NCBI RefSeq assembly: GCF_026283925.1
Contig: NZ_JAPDPF010000009.1
Coordinates: forward strand, 1-64,000
DNA from: Dyella halodurans
GTDB lineage: Bacteria; Pseudomonadota; Gammaproteobacteria; Xanthomonadales; Rhodanobacteraceae
Length of the DNA stretch: 64,000 nt
Direction: 5' to 3'
Below the pieces are notes generated by a model. It saw nothing but the letters and a program-made list of their open reading frames with translations. It did no database searches and had not been told where the DNA came from. Below, piece after piece: positions 36,755-63,278 of this stretch (positions within the stretch are counted from its first letter, which is position 1; every line of letters starts with the position of its first letter). Made by a program: the position numbers and the translations under genes.

Positions 36755-36922
36755 GGGCAGGAAGTCTAGCGCCACCGTCCCCGCGCCAACCTCGGTCATT
36801 CAACCGATGGTGCGTTGGGACGCCGGCGCGCAAGCTGCGCCCCAGATCAATCGCACCACCGGCACTCTTCCACGCGATGCATGTCCCCGTTCCGATTCGC
36901 CAACCAACCTCTGGAGTATCCC

Positions 36923-37693
36923 ATGTACATCAAAGCTCTTGGTCTCGCCGCCGCCACCGCCATGGCCCTGGCCTCCACCGCCCACGCCGCCGCCCCCAAG
37001 GCCCAGGAAGCCGTCAAGAACGTCGTGCTCGTGCATGGCGGTTTCGTCGACGGTTCTGGCTGGCAGCAGGTTTACAACATCCTCAAGAAGGACGGCTACA
37101 ACGTCACCATCGTGCAGAATCCCACCACCTCGCTGGCCGATGACGTCGCCATCACCAGGCGCGCCATTGCCAAGCAGGATGGCCCCGTCGTTCTGGTCGG
37201 CCACTCTTACGGCGGCGTGGTCGTCTCCGAAGCCGGCACCGATCCCAAGGTCCAGCGCCTGGTGTATATCGCCGCGTTCGCTCCCGACCAGGGCGAGTCA
37301 GTCCAGTCCCTGATCGCCAACCCGCCGCCGGGCGCGTCGCAGCCGCCTATCCTGCCGCCGCAGGATGGCTTCCTGTTCCTCGATCGCGCGAAGTTCGCGG
37401 CCGCCTTCGCGGGTGACGTCCCCGCCGACGAAGCCAGCTTCATGGCGGACTCGCAGGTGCCATGGGGTGTCCAAGCCCTCGGCGGCCAGGTGACGGTGCC
37501 GGCGTGGAAGTCGAAGCCGAGCTGGTATCTGGTCACCACGGAAGACCACATGATTCCGCCCCCGGCGCAGGAGATGATGGCCAAGCGCGCGGGCTCGACC
37601 GTGGTCGAAACGCGCGGCAGCCATGCGATTTATGTGTCGAAGCCGGAGGTCGTCGCCAGGATCATCGAACAGGCGGCGCTCGGCAGGAAGTAA
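36923..37693 (+). CDS. Exported alpha/beta hydrolase
   Basis: 256 aa. A signal peptide (MYIKALGLAAATAMALASTAHA) precedes the hydrolase fold. The active site is complete: Ser95 in VGHSYGG, Asp207 (TTEDHM) and His233 (GSHAIYV), with VHGGFVDGSGW as oxyanion loop. It belongs to the group of small esterase-like proteins next to LuxR- or AraC-type regulators. A close relative at 60532-61287 has Asp in place of this Ser. GGAG lies before the ATG. A terminator follows at 37706-37739. It diverges from the LuxR/HD-GYP-like gene. Confidence 0.9.
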   Translation: MYIKALGLAAATAMALASTAHAAAPKAQEAVKNVVLVHGGFVDGSGWQQVYNILKKDGYNVTIVQNPTTSLADDVAITRRAIAKQDGPVVLVGHSYGGVVVSEAGTDPKVQRLVYIAAFAPDQGESVQSLIANPPPGASQPPILPPQDGFLFLDRAKFAAAFAGDVPADEASFMADSQVPWGVQALGGQVTVPAWKSKPSWYLVTTEDHMIPPPAQEMMAKRAGSTVVETRGSHAIYVSKPEVVARIIEQAALGRK

Positions 37694-49610: not shown

Positions 49611-49638
49611 TTGCTTTTTGTACTGCCACGTATAATAT
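49611..49638 (+). promoter_or_regulatory. Putative tetR promoter
   Basis: TTGCTT (49611-49616) and TAATAT (49633-49638) with a 16-base spacer; TATAAT at 49631 overlaps at a shorter spacing. The AT-rich segment lies about 30 bases upstream of the TetR gene and is a plausible site for autoregulation. Confidence 0.5.
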
Positions 49639-53837: not shown

Positions 53838-54236
53838 ATGAAACCCACTCGAATCGCGGCCGTCATGCTGCTGGCCGTCACTGCCCTGGCGCCCCTCGCA
53901 GGATGGACGCAGCAAACAGGAGTCCATCGCACCGACCTCCAGCGCCACGACCTCAGCATGCCGGGGTGGGAGGCTATCCAGGTACGCGTCGATATCGATC
54001 CGGGAGCACTCGCCCCCAATCATCGGCACCCGGGCGAAGAGATCATCTATGTGCTGGCGGGCACACTCGAGTATCAGCTGCAGGGCAAGCCCCCGGTCAC
54101 GCTCAAGGCTGGCGATGTCCTGTTTGTCCCGGCGGGAGTCGTCCACAGCGCGAAGAACGTAGGCCACGACAACGCGTCCGAACTCGCGACCTATGTCGTG
54201 GAAAAGGGCAAGCCGCTGGTCGAGCTGGTCAAGTAA
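53838..54236 (+). CDS. Exported cupin domain protein
   Basis: 132 aa. A signal peptide (residues 1-25) is followed by one cupin barrel: PNHRHPGEEIIYVLAGTLEYQLQG supplies the metal ligands His, His and Glu, and AGDVLFVPAGVVHSAKN the last His. Metal-binding periplasmic protein of unknown reaction. It follows msrA on the same strand and may be co-transcribed, which would link it to oxidative stress. Confidence 0.88.
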   Translation: MKPTRIAAVMLLAVTALAPLAGWTQQTGVHRTDLQRHDLSMPGWEAIQVRVDIDPGALAPNHRHPGEEIIYVLAGTLEYQLQGKPPVTLKAGDVLFVPAGVVHSAKNVGHDNASELATYVVEKGKPLVELVK

Positions 54237-54361
54237 GCAGCAAGCATCGCCGCGATTTCCCGGGCAACGCTTACCGACGATGTGCATCGCTTGCGCACCG
54301 GCCTCGAGCTGAGGCCGGTGCGTATCCGGTCTAGTGATGACCGTTGGCCCAGGCGGGCGCC

Positions 54362-55159
54362 TCAGGCAAGGTCGTAGCGCGCCGCAGGCTTGTTGCGCGA
54401 CAGGTTGGGCAGCAAGGCCTGACGTGCCGCTTCGTAGGCTGTCCAGTCCGCCGCGTCCGGTAGCGAGGGGACGGTGAAGGTCTCGCCCTGATCAAGGCCG
54501 GCCAGCGCCGCATCCACCAGGTCGGTCGCCGACATCACCATGGCGGAAGGCAGCTGGTCGACCGGATGGCCCGCCACGTCCCAGAACTCGGTGGCGATCG
54601 CGCCCGGCAGGACGGCCTGCACACGCAGGCCGTTGCCGGCAAGCTCGTGCTGGAGCGACTGCGTAAACGCCAGCACATAGGCCTTGGTAGCGCCGTACAC
54701 GCCATTGAGCAGCTCCGGCGCCACGGCCACGATGGAGGCGACATTGATCACCGTACCGCCGCCGCGCTCGACCAGGCCCGGTACCGCCGCATAGGTCAGG
54801 CGCGTAAGCGCGCCCACATTGAGCGAAATCATCTCGGTCATGCGTGCGACGTCGGATGCCAGCAGCGGGGTAGCGGCGCCGAAGCCGGCGTTATTGACCA
54901 GCACCGAGATGCTGCGGTCCTCACGCAGCAGGTTCTCCACGCTGGCCAGTTCCGCGGGATCGTTGAGATCGGCCGCAAACACCTGGATCGAACGCCCTGT
55001 CTCGTCGGTCAGGCGACGCGCCAGCGCGTCCAGGCGCTGGCGATTGCGCGCCACCAGGATGAGGTCGTGGCCACGGCGCGCCAGGCGCTCGGCGTAGATG
55101 GCGCCAATGCCGGTGGAAGCGCCGGTAATAAGGGCCGTGCCCTTGTGCGAGGAAGTCAT
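54362..55159 (-). CDS. SDR family oxidoreductase
   Basis: 265 aa. Classical short-chain dehydrogenase: TGASTGIGAIYAERLA (NAD(P) loop), NNAGFG, catalytic Ser/Tyr/Lys in NVASIVAVAP and YGATKAY. RNRQRLDALARRL after the first strand suggests NADPH preference. The ATG at 55159 has GGAGA seven bases upstream. It is divergent from the GlxA-type regulator gene at 55277. Confidence 0.92.
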   Translation of the reverse strand: MTSSHKGTALITGASTGIGAIYAERLARRGHDLILVARNRQRLDALARRLTDETGRSIQVFAADLNDPAELASVENLLREDRSISVLVNNAGFGAATPLLASDVARMTEMISLNVGALTRLTYAAVPGLVERGGGTVINVASIVAVAPELLNGVYGATKAYVLAFTQSLQHELAGNGLRVQAVLPGAIATEFWDVAGHPVDQLPSAMVMSATDLVDAALAGLDQGETFTVPSLPDAADWTAYEAARQALLPNLSRNKPAARYDLA

Positions 55160-55225
55160 GTTGAGGTCTCCGAACGCGCCAGCGGGATGCCAGCGCCACG
55201 AGCACCTTTGTAGGCCCGATCGGTG

Positions 55226-55241
55226 TAGACTCAAATGTCTA
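55226..55241. promoter_or_regulatory. Inverted repeat in the SDR/GlxA divergent region
   Basis: TAGAC (55226-55230), six-base spacer, GTCTA (55237-55241), located 36-51 bases upstream of the regulator start and 67-82 bases upstream of the SDR start. It is a plausible operator for the AraC/GlxA-type regulator. Confidence 0.45.
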
Positions 55242-55276
55242 ATATGCCACCTTTTCTGCCATGCAGGAGACTTGCC

Positions 55277-56254
55277 ATGCATCGCGTCGGTTTTGTCGTC
55301 TATCCCGGCATTCAGGCCATGAGCCTGGCCGCGGTGTCGGCGTTCGAATTCGCCAACCTCGCCATGGAGCGCAAGGTGTACGAGGTCCGCTACGTCTCCG
55401 AAACGGGAGGCCCGATCGTCGGCTCGTTCGGTATGACCATGCACACCGACGCGTTCGGCCGGCGCCGCTTCGATACCGTACTGGTGGGTGGAGGCGTGGG
55501 CATTCCCGCGTCGACGCCCGCGTTGCTGAAATTCATACGCCACGCCTCGCGCCATTCTCGGCGCGTCGCCGCGATCTGCACTGGTGCTTTTCTGTTGGCC
55601 GAGGCCGGTCTGCTCGACGGGCGCCGTGCGACCACGCACTGGCTGCTCGCCCGCGAACTCAAGCAGCACTACCCCGGGATAACCGTGGAAGCGGACCGCA
55701 TCTTCATCATCGACGGACCGACATGGACGTCGGCGGGTATGAGCGCGGGCGTCGATCTCGCGTTGGCCATGGTCGAAAAGGACCTCGGCGCCGAGGTGGC
55801 GCGCACGGTGGCACAGATGCTGGTGGTCTATCACCGTCGCTCCGGCGGCCAGTCGCAGTTTTCCGCGCTGCTGGAACTGGACCCCAAGTCGGATCGCATC
55901 CAGAACGCTCTTACCTACGCCAGAAGTCACCTGCAGTCGGCGTTGACGGTGGAGGAACTGGCCGCCGCCGCGAACCTCAGCCCGCGGCAGTTCAGTCGGA
56001 CGTTTCGCGCCGAAACCGGTCAGTCGCCCGCCAAGGCCGTGGAACACCTGAGGGTGGAAGCGGCCCGCCTGATGATGGAGCAGACGCGGCATCCCGTCGA
56101 AGTCGTTGCGCGTGAAGTGGGCTTTGACGATCGCGAACGCATGCGCCGCGCCTTCGTTCGGACCTTCGGCAAGCCGCCCCAGGCGATGCGGCGGCAGGCG
56201 CACGGGCCGGTAGCGCTCGAATCATCTGCAAACGAGACCGCGGCTGCTGCCTAG
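55277..56254 (+). CDS. GlxA family transcriptional regulator (DJ-1/PfpI + AraC HTH)
   Basis: 325 aa. An N-terminal DJ-1/PfpI-like domain (1-175; VGFVVYPGIQAMSLAAVSAFEFAN, AAICTGAFLLAEAGLLDGRRATTHW with the nucleophile-elbow Cys) is followed by an AraC helix-turn-helix (215-300; LTVEELAAAANLSPRQFSRTFRAETGQSPAKAVEHLRVE and the second HTH to about 310). AGGAGA at 55265-55270. It lies divergent from the SDR gene and probably controls it. Confidence 0.92.
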   Translation: MHRVGFVVYPGIQAMSLAAVSAFEFANLAMERKVYEVRYVSETGGPIVGSFGMTMHTDAFGRRRFDTVLVGGGVGIPASTPALLKFIRHASRHSRRVAAICTGAFLLAEAGLLDGRRATTHWLLARELKQHYPGITVEADRIFIIDGPTWTSAGMSAGVDLALAMVEKDLGAEVARTVAQMLVVYHRRSGGQSQFSALLELDPKSDRIQNALTYARSHLQSALTVEELAAAANLSPRQFSRTFRAETGQSPAKAVEHLRVEAARLMMEQTRHPVEVVAREVGFDDRERMRRAFVRTFGKPPQAMRRQAHGPVALESSANETAAAA

Positions 56255-56283: not shown

Positions 56284-57603
56284 TCAAGGCAAGGTGATGG
56301 TCGCGATAAGGCCTCCGCCCTCGCGGTTGCCAAGCGTCAGGTTCCCGCCAATGGCGCGGGTCAGCTGTGCCGCGATGGCCAGGCCCAGCCCCGCACCGCC
56401 GGTGTCGCGGTTACGCGATGCCTCCAACCGATAGAACGGTTGCAGGACCTGCTCCAGTTCCTCATCGGGAATGCCGGGCCCACGATCCGACACCGCCATG
56501 CACAGGGCACCCTCCTCGTTGCGCCATGCGGCGACCTCGGCGACGCCTCCGTACTTGATGGCGTTGTCGATGAGGTTGCCCAGTACGCGCCGCAACGCCT
56601 CCCGGCGGACCATGGTGGGACCGCGAACCGACGCCACCAGGGAAACCGGCCGGCCCACATCCTGATAGTCGAACACGAGACTCTCGAGAAAAGCGCCTAC
56701 ATCCATGCGTACCGGCGTCTCGGCTCCACCATGTGCGCTACGGGCGTAGGCCACGCCCTCGCGCACAAGCTGCTCCATGGCGTGCAAGTCATCGAGGATC
56801 TTCTGTTTGGCCACCCCCTCTTCGAGCGCTTCGGCGCGTAGGCGCATGCGCGTGATCGGTGTCTGCAGGTCGTGGGAAATCGACGCGAGGATATGCAGGC
56901 GCTCCTTCAGATGGCGACGGATGCGTTCCTGCATTGAATTGAAGGCCGCCGCTGCCTGGGCAACTTCGGTCGGTCCTTCTTCGCTCATATGGGGTCCATC
57001 CGCCGTCGGCATCATGGACTCCGCGGCCTCGGCCAGATGGGTCAAGGGACGCGTCGCCAAGCGCACGGCGAGCCAGGTGCACAACAGCAAGAGCAGCATC
57101 TGCAGGACCAGCACCACAGGGAGCCATCGCGCCACCGGCATGAGGTGCGGCGTGACGTCGAGCGTTAGCGGCTGACCATCGCGCAAGGTGAAGTGCACCT
57201 GGTAGCGCCCCGGCGCAGCGGCCACGGCGTCGCCATGCACGCGGAAATCGGCGCCGACTTCCTTGGCGATCAAACCCGTTACCGTACGCGAACGATCGGA
57301 GTTCAGCGGCGCACCGGGCTGACCCGGGCCGAGCACGAAGTAGTAATTGTCGCGTCGCAGGCGCCCGAGCCAGTTTGGGCGCTCCTGTGCCGGCAAGTGG
57401 TCCAGCACGGCGACGGACGTACCTATTTCATGCTCCATGGTGTCGAACATGACCGTGGTGGCGCTTTGATAGCGCTCATAGAACAGCAGCGCGAGCGAAA
57501 GGCCCTGCGCAAGCATCAGGCCGGCCAGGATGATCAGATAAAGCCGCGAGGCCATGCTGCGAGGCAGCCAGCGCCTGGCGACGGCCGGCGCGGCCTCGCT
57601 CAT
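56284..57603 (-). CDS. Sensor histidine kinase (EnvZ-like)
   Basis: 439 aa. Two transmembrane helices (about 21-42 and 158-180) flank a periplasmic domain of some 115 residues; a HAMP domain follows, then HisKA with His244 (SHDLQTPITRMRLRAEAL), the N box NLIDNAIKYGG, G1 DRGPGIP and G2 GLGLAIA. It is the last gene of the leftward redoxin-regulator-kinase operon; its ATG overlaps the regulator's stop (ATGA). The periplasmic sensor part has no recognised ligand motif. Confidence 0.92.
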   Translation of the reverse strand: MSEAAPAVARRWLPRSMASRLYLIILAGLMLAQGLSLALLFYERYQSATTVMFDTMEHEIGTSVAVLDHLPAQERPNWLGRLRRDNYYFVLGPGQPGAPLNSDRSRTVTGLIAKEVGADFRVHGDAVAAAPGRYQVHFTLRDGQPLTLDVTPHLMPVARWLPVVLVLQMLLLLLCTWLAVRLATRPLTHLAEAAESMMPTADGPHMSEEGPTEVAQAAAAFNSMQERIRRHLKERLHILASISHDLQTPITRMRLRAEALEEGVAKQKILDDLHAMEQLVREGVAYARSAHGGAETPVRMDVGAFLESLVFDYQDVGRPVSLVASVRGPTMVRREALRRVLGNLIDNAIKYGGVAEVAAWRNEEGALCMAVSDRGPGIPDEELEQVLQPFYRLEASRNRDTGGAGLGLAIAAQLTRAIGGNLTLGNREGGGLIATITLP

Positions 57604-58340
57604 GCATCGCTCCCGGGCACGGTGACCGGCATGCAGAACACATAGCCCTCGCTGCGCACGGTCTTGATATAGGACTGGTCCTTCGCGTCGTCGTCGAGTC
57701 GACTTCTCAGGCGACTCACCAGCAGGTCGATCGAGCGATCGAACAATTCCGCATCCCTGCCCTGGGTCAGGTTCAGCAGCTGGTCCCTGGACAGCACGCG
57801 CTGCGGATGATCGAGAAAGACCCGCAACAAGCGAAACTCGGCACCGCTCAATGCAACGTTGGTGCCGCTCTCGTCGAGCAGATGACGCGCCGCGGTGTCC
57901 AGCCGCCAGCGGCCGAACGCCAGCGTGTCCGCCGACTCGGTGATGCGCAGGTTGGGCGGCAACATGCGCGTGCGCCGAATCACCGCCTTGATGCGCGCAA
58001 GCAGCTCGCGCGGCGAGAACGGCTTGACCACATAGTCGTCCGCGCCCATTTCCAGGCCGACGATGCGATCGGTCTCGTCATCCCGGGCCGTCAGCAGCAG
58101 GATCGGCACGGCGCGATGCTTGCCGCTGCGCAAGGTGCGGCAAAGCACCAGGCCATCGTCGCCGGGCATCATGATGTCGAGCACGATCAGGTCGAACGCC
58201 GACGTATCGAGCTGCGCAAACATGTCGCGTCCATCCACGGCGGCACTGGCACGCAGCCCGTTCTTGCGCAGGTAGTCCGCGACGCCGGTGCGAATGTCGT
58301 GATCGTCATCGACGACGAGAATGTGATCGATATGTTCCAT
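57600..58340 (-). CDS. OmpR-family response regulator
   Basis: 246 aa. Receiver domain with Asp11/Asp12 and phospho-acceptor Asp55 (FDLIVLDIMMPG), the switch Thr and Lys in LLLTARDDE and VVKPFSP, then a winged-helix Trans_reg_C domain (HLLDESGTNVALSGAEFRLLRVFLDHPQRVLSRDQLL). It is the partner of the adjacent kinase. Tandem TGTAT repeats in the divergent region upstream of ohr/buf are good candidate sites for it. It follows the redoxin gene by 43 bases. Confidence 0.93.
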   Translation of the reverse strand: MEHIDHILVVDDDHDIRTGVADYLRKNGLRASAAVDGRDMFAQLDTSAFDLIVLDIMMPGDDGLVLCRTLRSGKHRAVPILLLTARDDETDRIVGLEMGADDYVVKPFSPRELLARIKAVIRRTRMLPPNLRITESADTLAFGRWRLDTAARHLLDESGTNVALSGAEFRLLRVFLDHPQRVLSRDQLLNLTQGRDAELFDRSIDLLVSRLRSRLDDDAKDQSYIKTVRSEGYVFCMPVTVPGSDA

Positions 58341-58383
58341 CTCTACCTATTCCAAGGATTACGCCGCTCTCATGCCTCACGCA

Positions 58384-58929
58384 TCAGGAGGCTTCGCCAA
58401 GCAACATCCGCACGCGCTTTTCGGTGTCTTCGTAGTCGCCCTCGCCGACATGGCTATACACGATGCGACCATTGCGATCGATCAGATAGATGGCCGGCCA
58501 GTAGCGGTTGTCGTAAGCGTTCCAGATGCGCATGTCATTATCCACCGCGACCGGCCAGGTGATGCTGAACTCATTCAAGGCCGCCTGCAGGCTGTTCGCG
58601 TCCCGCTCCTCGTCGTACTCGGGCGTATGGACGCCAACGACGACCAGGCCGTCCTTGCCGTATTTCTCATAGAGCGCCTTCGTGTGGGGCAGTACGTGAA
58701 TGCAATTGATGCACTCACGCGCCCAGAATTCCACCAGCACGACCTTGCCACGCAGTTGTTCCATCGACAGCGGCGGCGAATTGAGCCAACGGTTCGCTCC
58801 CGTGATGTCCGGCGCCGGTGTTCCAGGCGAGTGCTCCTGTGCATGCGCCGTGCCCCAGACACTGGGCCAGACGGCGATGAAGACGGCGCTCAGGGCGGCC
58901 AGCACGGCGCCTAGACGCAGGATTTTCAT
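58384..58929 (-). CDS. Exported thioredoxin-like redoxin (TlpA/ResA type)
   Basis: 181 aa. A signal peptide or N-terminal anchor (residues 1-30, ending AHA) is followed by a thioredoxin fold with the active site Cys73-Ile-Asn-Cys76 (VLVEFWARECINC). VVVGVHTPEYDEERDANSLQAALNEF and YWPAIYLIDRNGRIVYSHVGEGDYEDTE are typical of DipZ/TlpA-like periplasmic redoxins. It is the first gene of the leftward operon with the two-component system and faces the ohr-buf operon. It may keep envelope thiols reduced. Confidence 0.9.
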   Translation of the reverse strand: MKILRLGAVLAALSAVFIAVWPSVWGTAHAQEHSPGTPAPDITGANRWLNSPPLSMEQLRGKVVLVEFWARECINCIHVLPHTKALYEKYGKDGLVVVGVHTPEYDEERDANSLQAALNEFSITWPVAVDNDMRIWNAYDNRYWPAIYLIDRNGRIVYSHVGEGDYEDTEKRVRMLLGEAS

Positions 58930-59027
58930 AAGGCTTGCCTCGTGGACAGGGGACCGTGCCACAGCGCACCGCCCTACGGCTTATTGAATCAAGGCTGTTT
59001 ATCTCAAGCGTGTCCGTTTTAGCGGCT

Positions 59028-59046
59028 TTTTGTATCCGTATGTACA
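59028..59046 (+). promoter_or_regulatory. OmpR-type tandem repeat box 1
   Basis: TGTAT at 59031 and TGTAC at 59041, ten bases apart, within TTTTGTATCCGTATGTA (59028-59044). Same-face direct repeats at one helical turn are how OmpR/PhoB-family dimers bind. Fifteen of the 17 bases recur in box 2, 55 bases downstream. Confidence 0.6.
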
Positions 59047-59082
59047 GCGCCCCCGGACCGGGCTGCGCACGTCTGCCGGAAC

Positions 59083-59100
59083 TTTTGTATCGGCATGTAT
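59083..59100 (+). promoter_or_regulatory. OmpR-type tandem repeat box 2
   Basis: TGTAT at 59086 and again at 59096, ten bases apart, within TTTTGTATCGGCATGTA (59083-59099). It lies about 145 bases upstream of ohr and is the copy nearer to the bufferin operon. Confidence 0.6.
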
Positions 59101-59242
59101 CCAGCCCCCGTCGCGACACATTGCGATGCCTTTTGGCGCCCGGCGCGACACACCGCGGATACGTCGGAGCGGTTTCCTATGCCCACCAGCCGATCCTGCG
59201 CCACCACTCGGGGCGTGCGGCCATTCAACCAGGAAAACGATC

Positions 59243-59662
59243 ATGTCCCAGCACAACGCTGTTCTCTACACCGGCAAGACCCATACCACTGGCGGCCGCG
59301 ACGGCCAGTCGCGTAGCAGCGACGGTCGCCTCGACGTCAACCTGTCGCTACCCGGCTCCAACGGCAGCGGCACCAACCCGGAACAACTGTTCGCCGCTGG
59401 CTGGTCTGCCTGCTTCCTCGGTGCCATGCAGCGCAATGCGCAGGCGCTGGGCGTCCGCTTCCCGGCCGATGCCGCGGTCGACGCCGAGGTGGACCTCGCC
59501 AACACCGCAGAGAAGAGCTTTTTCCTGCAGGCGCGCCTCCACGTGAGCCTGCCCGGGCTGGATCGCGCGCAGGCCCAGGCCGTCGTCGATCTCGCCCACC
59601 AGACCTGCCCGTATTCCAAGGCGACCCGCGGAAACATCGACGTCGTCACCGTCCTGGTCTGA
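59243..59662 (+). CDS. Organic hydroperoxide resistance protein (Ohr/OsmC family)
   Basis: 139 aa. Ohr-type peroxiredoxin-like enzyme: the peroxidatic Cys57 is in [10 protein letters not shown] and the resolving Cys122 in [27 protein letters not shown] is diagnostic of the Ohr branch. It reduces organic hydroperoxides, usually with lipoylated proteins as donors. AGGA precedes ATG 59243. The first bufferin precursor gene starts 47 bases downstream, so ohr is the likely first gene of this operon. Confidence 0.92.
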
Positions 59663-59709
59663 ACCACGCTCCCTTCCGAGCTCTATCCCACGTATCCACG
59701 GAGAATCCC

Positions 59710-59985
59710 ATGAAACGCACACACGCCACGCTCGCCGCCACCTTGGCCCTCGGCCTTGCCTGCCTCGCCTCGGTCGGCCACGCCGAGGACGCCAAGAAGC
59801 CGATGGAAAAATGCTACGGCGTCGCTCTCGCCGGCAAGAACGATTGTGCCGCCGGTGCCGGCACGAGCTGCGCAGGCACGGCGAAAGCCAACTACCAGGG
59901 CAATGCCTGGGTCCTCGTCGACAAAGGGACCTGCACCACGATCAAGACGCCCAAGGGCCACGGCTCCCTCGAGGCCCAGTCGTAA
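59710..59985 (+). CDS. bufA1: BufA1-type bufferin precursor (DUF2282)
   Basis: 91 aa. A Sec signal peptide (1-25, ending GHA) is followed by a short Cys-rich core with Cys35 ([14 protein letters not shown]), Cys46, Cys54 (TSCAGTAK) and Cys75 ([12 protein letters not shown]). This is the DUF2282/BufA1 pattern. Bufferins are periplasmic RiPPs whose cysteines are converted, as reported for Caulobacter, to thiooxazoles by an MNIO enzyme, and which bind copper. The DoxX-like gene overlaps its stop by one base (TAATG). The maturase genes lie further down the same operon, after a second precursor. Confidence 0.9.
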
Positions 59986-60539
59986 TGGCCACGACCGAGC
60001 TGACCGCCATGCGGATGGCGTCATCGCGCGAGGCGAGCTCGACGCTCGCGGCCCGATGGTCGGGCGCCCTCCCGGACGCCTTGCTGCTCCTGGTCGCCCG
60101 CTTGGGCATCGCTTCGGTGTTCTTCCAGTCGGGTCGTACCAAGGTCGAGGGGTTCCTGACGATCAAGCCGTCGACCTACGACCTGTTTGCCTCGGAGTAC
60201 CACCTGCCGCTGATTTCACCCGAGTGGGCAGCACGCCTGGCGACCGGAGCGGAACACCTCTTCCCGGTGTTGCTGGTACTGGGGCTGTTCTCACGGGTGT
60301 CCGCGCTCGCCCTGCTGGGCATGACCACGGTGATCGAGATCTTCGTCTATCCGGACGCCTGGCCGACGCACCTGAGCTGGGCCGGCTTGCTCCTGCCGAT
60401 CATCGCGAGCGGTGGTGGCAAGTGGTCGCTCGACCACGTCTTGCGCCATCGGCGCGAACGTCGCGCAACGCAACGCCAGCGCACGTCCCCATCCCAAGCC
60501 CTTCCATCACGGGCACCGCAGGAAGTCCACCATGCGTAA
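59985..60539 (+). CDS. DoxX family membrane protein (BufD-like)
   Basis: 184 aa with four transmembrane helices of DoxX type: [27 protein letters not shown], then [40 protein letters not shown] and [23 protein letters not shown]. DoxX-like proteins often occur in bufferin operons, where they may be membrane redox or quinone-linked partners. The ATG overlaps bufA1's stop by one base, and its own stop overlaps the hydrolase gene by eight bases. Confidence 0.88.
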
Positions 60540-61287
60540 ATTGTTGAGTTTCACCCTTGCCCTCATGGCATCCACCGGCCTCGCGCATGCAGCCGATGCG
60601 GCGCCCACCGGCGTCAAGAACATCGTCATCGTCCCTGGCGCCTTCGTCGACGGTTCGGGCTGGCACGTCGTGCACGACATCCTGATCCACAAGGGCTACA
60701 CCGTTAACGTAGTGCAGCCGCGCATCGACACCTTGCTCAACGACGCCGAGGCGGTCAACCGGCAGCTGCGCAAGGAAGACGGTCCGACCCTGCTGGTCGG
60801 CAGCGACTATGGCGGCGCCGTGATCACCCAGGCCGGCAACCGCGACAAGGTCAAGGGCCTGGTCTACGTGGCCGCCGTCGCACCGACCGTTGGCGAAAGC
60901 ACGCTCCAACTGGTCGAGTCCATGCCCGAGCCGAGCAACGATCTCCAGGCCTCCTGGGACGGTTACATCTACGTCAAGGAAAAGCCGTTCGGCGCCGACT
61001 TTGGCGGCGACCTGACCACCAACCGCACGGACTTCCTGGCCGTATCGCAGGTGCCGGGAACGGTTGGCGCGCTCCGCGCCGTCACCGAGACAACCGCCTG
61101 GCGCAACAAGCCCAGCTGGGCTGTCGTGGCGACCGAAGACCGCGTGTACAGCCCCGAGCTGCAGCGCTCGATGTACCAGCGTGCCGGCTCCAAGGTCACC
61201 GAGATCAAGGGCAGCCACCTCGTCTACATGTCGCAGCCGGAACGGGTTGCGCAAGTCATCGAAGACGCGGCGACGAGCCTGAAGTAA
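60532..61287 (+). CDS. Exported alpha/beta hydrolase with Asp at the nucleophile position
   Basis: 251 aa. A signal peptide ([20 protein letters not shown]) leads an alpha/beta hydrolase fold related to the protein encoded at 36923-37693. The elbow reads LVGSDYGG, so Asp92 takes the place of the Ser in LVGHSYGG. His229 (GSHLVYM) and the acid Asp203 (ATEDRV) remain, and the oxyanion loop is [11 protein letters not shown] instead of VHGGFVDGSGW. Asp nucleophiles occur in haloalkane dehalogenases and epoxide hydrolases; loss of activity is the other option. It is embedded in the bufferin operon, overlapping the DoxX gene and preceding bufA2 by 51 bases. Confidence 0.85.
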
Positions 61288-61338
61288 GACCACAGCAACC
61301 ACCACCGTCCCTCCGGACCCATCCCCAGGAGTATCACC

Positions 61339-61623
61339 ATGTCCACTATCACCACCAAGTCTCGCAGCGGTTTTGCGGCCGCCGCCGCCGCTGTCGCCCT
61401 CGCACTCGCCTCGCTGCACGCACCGGCGCACGCCGCCGACCAAGGGTCGCAGAAGCAGGAGCCGGCCCGCTGCTACGGCGTCAATTCGTGCAAGGGCCAG
61501 AGCCTGTGCGCAACAGCCAAGCACGATTGCAAGGGCCTCAACGGCTGCAAGGGCCAGGGCGTCGTCGTGAAGACGCCAAGCGAGTGCACCGCCGCCGGCG
61601 GCACGCTGACCGAACCGAAGTGA
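61339..61623 (+). CDS. bufA2: BufA2-type bufferin precursor
   Basis: 94 aa. A signal peptide (about 10-33, ending AHAA) is followed by a core with six Cys: Cys45 (RCYGVNSC), Cys51, Cys57 (SLCAT), Cys64 (HDCKG), Cys70 (NGCKGQG) and Cys83 (SECTAAGGT). C-K-G-Q repeats are typical of the BufA2 branch. AGGAG at 61327-61331. The core is richer in Cys and Lys than BufA1. A strong hairpin separates it from the maturase gene, which would favour precursor over enzyme. Confidence 0.9.
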   Translation: MSTITTKSRSGFAAAAAAVALALASLHAPAHAADQGSQKQEPARCYGVNSCKGQSLCATAKHDCKGLNGCKGQGVVVKTPSECTAAGGTLTEPK

Positions 61624-61630
61624 TCGAATC

Positions 61631-61657
61631 GCTGGACCCGCGCCACGCGGGTCCAGC
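61631..61657 (+). promoter_or_regulatory. Strong hairpin between bufA2 and bufB
   Basis: A 12-bp perfect stem, 61631-61642 with 61646-61657 (GCTGGACCCGCG / CGCGGGTCCAGC), loop CCA, no T tract. It starts eight bases past the bufA2 stop and lies 30 bases before the bufB start. It may protect the precursor mRNA from 3' decay or act as a leaky attenuator. Confidence 0.7.
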
Positions 61658-61686
61658 CCTCGCCCGAGCCGATCAGGAAACTTGCC

Positions 61687-62532
61687 ATGCTTACCACCAT
61701 TCCCACCTTTGCCGGCTACGGACTCGGCTTGCGCCGCGAGCATTACCGCGACTTCCTCGAAACCGATGTACCCGTCGACTTTGTCGAAGTGATCTCGGAA
61801 AACTTCATGCTCGACGGTGGCCAGCCACGGCATATCCTCCGCCAGGTGCGCGAACGTCATCCCGTGGCCTTTCATGGCGTATCCATGTCGATCGGTTCTG
61901 TAGACGGACTGGATCACGACTACCTGCGTCGCCTGAGGATGCTGGTCGATGAGCTGGATCCGCTGTTCGTGTCGGATCATCTGAGCTGGTCACGCATCGA
62001 TCGTTTCAACTCGCACGACCTGCTGCCGCTGCCCTACACCGAAGAGGCGCTGGATATCGTCTGCAACAACATCACGACGGCGCAAGACGCCCTCGGCAGA
62101 TCGATGTTGTTCGAGAACCCGTCGAGCTATATCGCCTTCCCGGGACAGGTCATGACCGAATGGGAATTCCTCGGCGAGATGTCGCGCCGCACCGGTTGCG
62201 GCCTGCTGCTGGACATCAACAACGTCTACGTCAGTTCGCGCAACCACGGACTGGATGCGCATGCCTATCTTCGCGGGATGCCGCTTGAACGCGTACGCCA
62301 GATTCACCTTGCGGGACACACGCAGGGCGCCGGACTGCTGATCGATACCCACGACCAAGCGGTCTGTGACGATGTCTGGTCGCTGTATGCCGAGGCGACG
62401 ACGATGCTCGGTCCGGTGGCAACCATGATCGAGCGCGACGATGCCATCCCTCCGCTGGCCGAACTGCTCGATGAACTCGACATCGCACGCGAGATCGGGC
62501 GGAACAAGCAGCGGCTATCGGAGGCGGCATGA
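61687..62532 (+). CDS. bufB: MNIO family bufferin maturase (DUF692)
   Basis: 281 aa. Multinuclear non-haem iron-dependent oxidative enzyme on a TIM barrel. Likely iron ligands and neighbours include His63 (AFHGVSMSIG), His98 (VSDHLSW), Glu143 (LFENPSSY), Asn179 (DINNVYVSSRNHG), His207/His211 (IHLAGH), and Asp220-Thr-His222 (DTHDQAVCDDVW). MNIO enzymes modify Cys in their peptides with a partner protein. It would act on BufA1 and BufA2 before export. Its stop overlaps bufC by four bases (ATGA). Confidence 0.93.
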   Translation: MLTTIPTFAGYGLGLRREHYRDFLETDVPVDFVEVISENFMLDGGQPRHILRQVRERHPVAFHGVSMSIGSVDGLDHDYLRRLRMLVDELDPLFVSDHLSWSRIDRFNSHDLLPLPYTEEALDIVCNNITTAQDALGRSMLFENPSSYIAFPGQVMTEWEFLGEMSRRTGCGLLLDINNVYVSSRNHGLDAHAYLRGMPLERVRQIHLAGHTQGAGLLIDTHDQAVCDDVWSLYAEATTMLGPVATMIERDDAIPPLAELLDELDIAREIGRNKQRLSEAA

Positions 62533-63278
62533 ACCTTTCCACGCTGCAACGCAACTTCCGCGATTGGCTTGTCAGCTCGTCCAGCGAAGCCACGCTACGC
62601 CAGCTTGGCACCAGCACCACGGCAGGCCTGGACGTCTACCAGAACAACTACCGCGGACAGTTGGTCGGCTGTCTTGAGTCGAGCTTTCCGCAACTGCGCG
62701 CCTGGCTCGGGCAAGAAGTTTTTTTAGAGACGGCGATCGCCCATATCGACAGTCACCCACCGCACGCCTGGACCCTCGATGCCTATGGCCTCGACTTCGA
62801 CGAGACCTTGCAGGCGAGATTTCCGCACAACCCGGATCTTCACGAGCTGGCCTGGATCGAATGGGCGCTGTCGGAGTCCTTCGTTGCCGCCGACGTGACA
62901 CCCATGTCGAGTGACGAATGGCAGACCGTAGACTGGGACACAGCTCGCATCTGCCTCCATCCCGGCTTGCGCCAGCGCACCGCCACGACCAATGCGGAGG
63001 CGATCTGGTCTGCGCTTCAGGATGGCGCCCAACCACCAGAAAGCGAAATGCTGCCGTCGCCGCGCGGCCTTATCGTCTGGCGCCACGGGTACACCTCCCG
63101 CCTCAGGCTTGTCGACACGATCGAACACGAGGCATTACTGTCGCTGCGTGAGGACAACCGTTTCATCACCTGGTGTGATGCCCTCGTCGATCACCTGGGC
63201 GAAGAAGCCGGCGTTGGCAAGGCCGGCCAGCTGTTCGCCGACTGGCTTGCCGCTGGCATCGTTACCGGAACGCGGTGA
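62529..63278 (+). CDS. bufC: BufC/HvfC-type partner protein (DUF2063)
   Basis: 249 aa. The DUF2063 N-terminal domain carries STLQRNFRDWLVSSSSEATLRQLG, LDVYQNNYRGQLVGCLESSFPQLRAWLG and FLETAIAHIDSHPPHAWTLDAYG, the standard helical segments (about 1-95). The second half (to 249) is a mixed alpha/beta region typical of BufC/HvfC. It binds the precursor and presents it to BufB. It overlaps bufB by four bases and is the last gene of the operon. No terminator was seen after it. Confidence 0.92.
   Translation: MNLSTLQRNFRDWLVSSSSEATLRQLGTSTTAGLDVYQNNYRGQLVGCLESSFPQLRAWLGQEVFLETAIAHIDSHPPHAWTLDAYGLDFDETLQARFPHNPDLHELAWIEWALSESFVAADVTPMSSDEWQTVDWDTARICLHPGLRQRTATTNAEAIWSALQDGAQPPESEMLPSPRGLIVWRHGYTSRLRLVDTIEHEALLSLREDNRFITWCDALVDHLGEEAGVGKAGQLFADWLAAGIVTGTR

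Follow-up and report, generated by a model that had tools for sequence, protein, structure and literature searches.

Can a single maturase pair process two bufferin precursors of unlike class, and what does the two-component system encoded beside them respond to? Both questions are raised by a gene cluster in a stretch of 64,000 nucleotides from Dyella halodurans (contig NZ_JAPDPF010000009.1, positions 1 to 64,000), which is called the window throughout. Here, a DUF2282 precursor gene (bufA1) and a Buf2-class precursor gene (bufA2) share one MNIO gene (bufB) and one DUF2063 gene (bufC), and any locus in which one gene of each precursor class shares a single MNIO/DUF2063 pair is referred to as a two-precursor locus. 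The organic hydroperoxide resistance gene ohr precedes them, and a redoxin, a response regulator and a sensor kinase are encoded in the opposite direction (Table 1). All genes named in a first-pass annotation of this DNA were found in place, and their family assignments were confirmed by profile scores. We hold, with moderate confidence, that the cluster is an envelope-stress defence island, with a dedicated switch, paired operators and one maturase pair for two bufferins. A narrower proposal, that one pair makes both bufferin classes and in Rhodanobacteraceae belongs to a dedicated oxidant or electrophile regulon under a switch that does not sense copper, is put forward tentatively, with somewhat less than even confidence.

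Two precursors and one maturase pair

The 4.69-Mb genome to which the window belongs holds one DUF2282, two BufA2 and two MNIO matches, and each MNIO gene is preceded by bufA2. Beyond the window bufA1, no DUF2282 match is present in this genome, nor does any of its MNIO genes lie directly behind a DUF2282 gene; the window bufA1 is followed by doxX. The second MNIO gene is part of a bufA2-bufB-bufC set on contig C21.

A scan of genome contigs for MNIO enzymes yielded 484 relatives, and the best-scoring 80 loci were kept; these were chosen by similarity, so proportions among them are not population frequencies. The exact order bufA1-doxX-hydrolase-bufA2-bufB-bufC is found in 51 of the 80, and in one more (L006) with a split bufC. 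In 66 loci the six core genes are all found on the strand of the MNIO gene and no more than 4.5 kb away, whatever their order, and bufA1 lies within 4.5 kb on either strand in 77; the three loci without it are L016 and L050, which have a contig edge upstream, and L077. Seven sphingomonad loci carry bufA1-doxX divergently. Besides these sphingomonads, the hosts of the cassette include Dyella, Luteibacter, Pseudomonas, Cupriavidus, Burkholderia and relatives, Massilia, Duganella and Undibacterium. The first-pass annotation had allowed that a genome survey might reveal a scattered set and a chance association, but the association recurs across families, and that of the core genes is far above chance.

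Within the family, 117 genomes were surveyed, giving 58 DUF2282, 128 MNIO and 63 BufA2 matches (four second-domain BufA2 matches and all BufA2 rows below 34 bits left out). Of the DUF2282 genes, seventeen have no MNIO of their own and are followed at 1.7-1.9 kb by a bufA2-MNIO pair; an eighteenth, in G067, at 502 bases and thus past the 500-base cut, was assigned to this group by hand. One of the eighteen is the odd cluster L099, which leaves 17 true two-precursor clusters in 16 genomes. Eleven of these 16 genomes have no MNIO directly behind a DUF2282 gene, that is, no BufB1-type enzyme (G067 assigned manually). Three of them carry a further MNIO whose type was not assigned, and G077 has a single MNIO in its whole genome. 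The DUF2282 matches of G072 and G108, neither of them among the 16, are probably second BufA2 domains, so that two enzymes were wrongly counted as BufB1-type; one of these, L118, falls among BufB2 in the MNIO tree. Outside the family, 30 genomes of unstated completeness were hand-picked from the 80 loci. Exactly one DUF2282 and one MNIO gene occur in 10 of them, and 13 are without a BufB1-type MNIO by the same test, in which one MNIO, at L028, was counted as BufB1-type only through a bufA1 standing close before bufA2-bufB.

The order of the genes is informative in three further loci. Two Duganella clusters (L068 and L074) read bufA1-bufC-doxX-hydrolase-bufA2-bufB-second hydrolase, with no second bufC behind bufB, so that maturase and partner are placed behind different precursors. 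At L099 (3900-8450) the order is bufA1-bufC1-doxX-bufA2-bufB2-bufC2, and bufB1 is missing between bufA1 and the DUF2063-like gene; an ECF-sigma-like gene (extracytoplasmic function) is divergent there, and another BufB1 is encoded elsewhere in the same genome. A tree of 120 MNIO rows splits BufB1 from BufB2 with a support of 100/100. It also gathers the two-precursor enzymes in a clade (99/96) of 78 rows, of which 77 come from loci of the two-precursor or divergent arrangement, from contig-cut loci of that kind, or from L034. This clade joins (98/88) eight rows, seven of which are the BufB2 of tandem clusters, where, except in L099, bufA1 is accompanied by a bufB1 of its own. By this placement, the window MNIO is BufB2-type by descent. 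By gene order and by the tree, the two-precursor cluster is related to one with a separate maturase for each precursor, and loss of bufB1-bufC1 would be its likeliest path of origin.

Traces of a shared enzyme were also sought in the precursors and in the MNIO itself, with residues counted over non-redundant sequences. All 78 two-precursor loci have the four-cysteine core of BufA1, both central cysteines included. The residue after the third cysteine of BufA2 is Ala in 77 of these 78 loci and Lys in 7/7 tandem clusters, in L099, in 7/7 divergent loci and in 16/19 other Buf2 loci; one of the three exceptions among the last is L016, a contig-cut two-precursor locus. In the divergent sphingomonad arrangement, BufA1 carries Cys-Lys at its second cysteine (7/7). 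The residue beside the MNIO catalytic Asp, which has been tied to the residue following the modified cysteine (PMC13097082), is most often Asp in two-precursor enzymes (59 of 79, counting L099), with Gly, Ala or Glu in the other 20; among the remaining BufB2 groups, Asp is found in 18/19, 7/7 and 7/7. The similarity of BufA1 leaders to BufA2 leaders scores 28.9 in two-precursor loci, 28.0 in the divergent, 24.3 in the tandem and 21.5 in other BufB1-linked loci, against 23.3 for shuffled leaders and 22-24 for three other leaders of the window; the differences are small, the start codons were set by rule of thumb with some Met doubtful, and the L034 BufA1, scored in the BufB1 group, belongs with the two-precursor kind. 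Together, these residue and leader shifts are suggestive of a shared maturase.

Several observations weigh against it. BufB1-type enzymes occur in 5 of the 16 family genomes and in 17 of the 30 others, BufA2 of the divergent arrangement retains its Lys, and the window MNIO retains the Buf2-type Asp beside its catalytic Asp (ERDD). As relatives are not independent, the shifts in the precursors stand for about two events in evolution. In the tree, L077, where no bufA1 was found, falls inside the two-precursor clade, and a single clade without it is merely not rejected by the approximately unbiased test (p 0.238). L034 (8600-11800) has an MNIO of this clade, yet no bufA2 match and a truncated hydrolase. 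BufA1 may be unmodified, or be modified by the second BufB2 on C21. In the former case only BufA2 would be modified, and BufA1 would be exported with its cysteines unaltered and serve to buffer thiols or copper. Antoine et al. raise this option (PMC12452194), and it agrees with the BufB2 type of the window enzyme and with its ERDD motif, given the role ascribed to that residue (PMC13097082). However, we consider it rather unlikely in view of the two central BufA1 cysteines kept throughout, bufC directly behind bufA1 in the two Duganella loci, the 10 of 30 genomes with no other MNIO and, more weakly, the closeness of two-precursor BufA1 leaders to BufA2 leaders. Far less credit still is given to modification of BufA1 by an MNIO encoded elsewhere, with adjacency reflecting shared regulation only. 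The second MNIO of the own genome would allow it, as would the BufB1-type enzymes just counted, but the C21 enzyme stands behind its own bufA2 and is itself BufB2-type in the tree, while G077 and the same 10 genomes possess a single MNIO. Service of both precursors by one MNIO-DUF2063 pair, as first proposed from the window, is thus supported by comparative genomics (the one-MNIO genomes, the split Duganella clusters and L099) but unproven.

A two-component switch and its paired operator

The divergent promoter between redoxin and ohr contains two copies of the pattern TTTGTATCnnnWYGTAYM, in which TGTATC-like direct repeats lie 10 bases apart. No other exact match exists in the 4.69-Mb genome; allowing one mismatch raises the total to five, compared with one for the reversed pattern. 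In the window, four matches with up to two mismatches compare with 0.21 expected. A near-operator pair is also seen at window positions 49617 and 49667 (to 49684), with two mismatches and one, between genes that look HlyD-like and TetR-like by eye.

Of 24 non-redundant two-precursor loci that match the system strongly, 23 have at least one exact site and 17 have two; of 104 other non-redundant loci, 3 have one. The operator was derived from such two-precursor loci, so its conservation there is not an independent prediction, while its occurrence before epoxide-hydrolase-like genes was one. Twenty-two family genomes besides the own hold 41 exact sites, spread over 19 of them, and none of the reversed pattern. 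Thirty-two sites lie at the redoxin promoter facing ohr (in G046 facing bufA1). Of the nine elsewhere, six precede epoxide-hydrolase-like genes, one precedes a paralogue of the cassette hydrolase and two have other positions. The operator pair is found in 14 of the 117 family genomes, three of them (G013, G063 and G065) without a two-precursor cluster, and among 370 genomes of the class in the own genome only.

The epoxide-hydrolase-like genes are the best independent support for a common regulon, because they were not used in defining the operator. Seven family genomes carry such a gene outside the cassette (the own, G013, G021, G052, G077, G111 and G112), and L006 carries one behind bufC. 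In all eight cases an operator site precedes the first long ATG frame of the gene by 47-477 bases; six of these sites are exact, and those of the own genome and L006 deviate at one position. The own site, at C7:13373 and 306 bases before the gene, is one of three one-mismatch sites in that genome; the encoded protein has 5bov as its nearest solved relative (448 bits). Among the 80 sampled loci, an epoxide-hydrolase-like gene lies within about 2 kb behind bufB in 26.

The switch accompanies only part of the cassettes. Seventeen of the 80 loci have matches to kinase, regulator, redoxin and ohr alike, fifteen of them from Dyella or Luteibacter and two from Burkholderiales (L034 and L051); L020 and L027 have only redoxin and ohr of these four genes. 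In the family survey, the system stands beside 16 of the 17 two-precursor clusters, one per genome, and 15 of these 16 have ohr; it was not found in L089, where bufA1 is the first recognised gene behind the operators. The first-pass annotation had called the gene set unusual. This does not hold for the core cassette, which is common (52/80) and in print (PMC8719888); the system-bearing version was seen in Dyella, though not in every one, in Luteibacter and, rearranged, in three Burkholderiales loci (L034, L035 and L051). Additionally, the unit of kinase, regulator, redoxin and ohr with its operator occurs without neighbouring bufferin genes at L146, L147, L151 and L158, and the genomes of three of these four units have no DUF2282 match. 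The switch is therefore a system that can stand alone; it is probably a defence against oxidants or electrophiles to which bufferins were recruited, rather than a copper sensor. The proposed joining of metal sequestration with hydroperoxide and thiol defence gains support from this and becomes sharper, as the two-component system has its own operator and the switch-redoxin-ohr unit is also found without bufferin genes beside it.

Some loci do not fit such a regulon. L005 has no exact operator site. A single site each is also seen in three loci where no system was recognised, although at one of them, L035, matches to redoxin, regulator and kinase adjoin, the regulator falling below threshold. 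Exact sites in L156 and L157 lie at no recognised gene of the set. The Dyella locus L026 has the cassette with no system, redoxin or ohr in the stretch examined, and L097 (G100:C1:1474500-1487500), from Dyella or its kin, the second cluster of its genome and the one cluster of the family survey lacking the system, likewise shows no redoxin or ohr there and has no operator. G010, the fourth genome with a bufferin-free switch, does have bufferins elsewhere.

Alternatively, the two-component system might sense copper, in which case the island would be a locus for copper resistance with ohr and redoxin as additions. Bufferins do protect against copper (PMC12452194), and models of heavy-metal systems match the pair, albeit far under their cut-offs (TIGR01386, 109.1 against 292.55 bits; TIGR01387, 144.2 against 279.2). 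The EnvZ/OmpR equivalog models also fall below theirs (NF007004, 173.3 against 415; NF007005, 242.6 against 331). In 29 of 38 kinases that could be aligned (the other nine had no match to the start pattern), the periplasmic part shows no conserved cysteine and only isolated conserved His or Met, with no cluster. A sensor free of metal motifs may nevertheless respond to copper. However, the units without neighbouring bufferins keep the redox genes, the sensor shows neither a conserved cysteine nor a cluster of metal-type residues and the metal-system models fail, all of which favours an oxidant or electrophile as the signal. In H. influenzae, a related DoxX-MNIO-DUF2063 cluster is linked with hypochlorite by way of RpoE2 (PMC7907618); this too speaks against copper sensing, which we regard as doubtful.

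Proposed mechanism and known systems

An oxidant-responsive island would operate as follows. The OmpR/EnvZ-like system would respond to a stress in the periplasm, most probably one caused by oxidants or electrophiles and not by copper itself, and its regulator is predicted, from the conservation of the sites, to act through the operator pair in the one divergent promoter. To the left, the switch would drive its own operon of redoxin, regulator and kinase; to the right, judged by gene spacing, ohr-bufA1-doxX-hydrolase-bufA2-bufB-bufC. One BufB2-type MNIO with one DUF2063 partner would modify cysteines of both precursors. Both peptides would be exported, as their leaders suggest, and would bind copper like the known members of their family. 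Ohr, the thioredoxin-like protein and two probably exported hydrolases may handle peroxides, oxidised thiols and reactive organics. If this is true, bufferins are part of periplasmic oxidant defence, in which copper binding stops copper-driven chemistry. The operator connects them with a set of genes of the oxidant type.

The peptide classes, the enzyme pair and the core cassette are already known. The Pseudomonas cluster "Pep4" (Pacheco-Moreno et al. 2021, PMC8719888) has the same order as the window, DUF2282-DoxX-hydrolase-short peptide-DUF692-DUF2063. In the available text of that paper the cluster is merely listed, its second peptide is given "no conserved domain" and not recognised as Buf2, and neither a shared-maturase argument nor a two-component system or ohr appears. 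Pep4 also has a second hydrolase, epoxide-hydrolase-like, directly behind DUF2063, where the window has no such match; its Rhodanobacteraceae relative lies mostly elsewhere, behind the same operator. The Buf1 and Buf2 biosynthetic gene clusters of Antoine et al. (2025, PMC12452194) share the precursor-MNIO-DUF2063-DoxX core with the window. Tandem precursors and genomes with several precursors per MNIO pair are mentioned there, but a Buf1 and Buf2 pair with one maturase is not described in that text as a conserved clade. Its main text makes no mention of "two-component", "osmc" or "hydroperoxide", and the regulators named are a sigma factor and NrsF.

The captophorins (Gadgil et al. 2026, PMC13097082) involve the same enzyme class and are the source of the substrate-choice residues used above. 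Their frequent co-occurrence with DoxX, DUF2282 and transcriptional regulators is reported, the latter in a supplementary table; the regulators are unnamed in the text available, "two-component" does not occur and mixed-class clusters are not discussed. The RpoE2/SigE DoxX-MNIO-DUF2063 clusters of Haemophilus and Neisseria (PMC7907618) are part of an oxidant (HOCl) response, but as described they are under ECF sigma control, with one periplasmic small protein and no Ohr. A bufferin-like cluster of Caulobacter is linked to sigma-F under chromium, a non-copper stress (PMC3511200). In the open-access literature, supplements and figures aside, we found no earlier two-component control or operator for a bufferin operon, no mixed-class clade with genome-level evidence and no link to the hydrolase genes; the shared enzyme, the switch and the operator sites look new. 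Whether one MNIO pair modifies several precursors, or some stay unmodified, is an open question in the text of PMC12452194, and the genomes with one DUF2282 and one MNIO (10/30), together with the split Duganella clusters, make it directly testable.

Layout of the locus and accessory genes

Table 1. Features of the two-precursor locus and its divergent switch (window positions)
Feature	Position	Strand	Basis and remarks
Sensor histidine kinase	56284..57603	-	Membrane helix, periplasmic domain, HAMP, HisKA, HATPase; HAMP/HisKA/HATPase above cut-off
OmpR-type response regulator	57600..58340	-	Response_reg and Trans_reg_C above cut-off
Redoxin, DipZ-like thioredoxin fold, CINC motif	58384..58962	-	AhpC-TSA/Redoxin above cut-off; probably exported
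Operator 1, TTTGTATCCGTATGTACA	59029..59046	+	Predicted response-regulator site; exact pattern match, conserved
Operator 2, TTTGTATCGGCATGTATC	59084..59101	+	Predicted site; begins 55 bp after the start of operator 1
ohr, organic hydroperoxide resistance protein	59243..59662	+	TIGR03561, 166 bits (cut-off 88.85)
bufA1, DUF2282 (Buf1-class) precursor	59710..59985	+	PF10048, 87.1 bits (cut-off 22.4)
doxX	59985..60539	+	PF07681 above cut-off; start codon overlaps bufA1 stop
Alpha/beta hydrolase with leader	60532..61287	+	Abhydrolase_6 above cut-off; Asp at nucleophile position (GSDYGG)
bufA2, Buf2-class precursor, six mature Cys	61339..61623	+	NF050166, 87.6 bits (cut-off 60)
bufB, MNIO (DUF692), BufB2-type, putative shared maturase	61687..62532	+	NF050167, 378.2 bits (cut-off 310)
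bufC, DUF2063 partner (PME-type 1), behind MNIO gene	62529..63278	+	PF09836, 67.7 bits (cut-off 27.2)

The rightward genes from ohr to bufC likely form one transcript, because only 47 bp separate ohr from bufA1 and doxX starts on the bufA1 stop codon; the ohr-bufA1 gap is 29-47 bp in 13 of 13 loci measured. A scan for sigma-70 promoters and terminators gave no signal above chance. The redoxin may start at GTG 58962 or at ATG 58929, its leader was recognised by eye, and its nearest solved relative is DipZ of M. tuberculosis (2hyx, 146 bits). The DoxX protein fails the HvfX-type model (NF050144, 46.1 bits against a cut-off of 80) and passes the generic one. Read from its sequence, BufA1 has four mature cysteines and one in the leader, and the leaders of both precursors are hydrophobic by eye. 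The DUF2282 and BufA2 profiles weakly match each other's members, and BufA2 domains are duplicated in some genomes (G072, G108 and others); the two bufferin classes look homologous.

The hydrolases of the cassette keep the catalytic acid and His in 89 of 89 sequences, and vary at the nucleophile, which is Ser in 62, Asp in 15 (the window included) and Gly in 12 (55, 13 and 12 once duplicates and the paralogue in the window are removed). With Asp at this position, a classical serine hydrolase is ruled out for the window protein, and judged by these residues some cassette hydrolases cannot be of that kind. A paralogue with a normal GHSYGG motif is encoded at about 36770-37600 of the window. To the left of the two-component system, genes that by eye resemble cupin, SDR (short-chain dehydrogenase/reductase) and AraC/GlxA-like genes occupy window positions 53838-56254. 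AraC-type relatives are also found near several other clusters, and in G111 (L148) an AraC-SDR pair adjoins an operator and a hydrolase paralogue.

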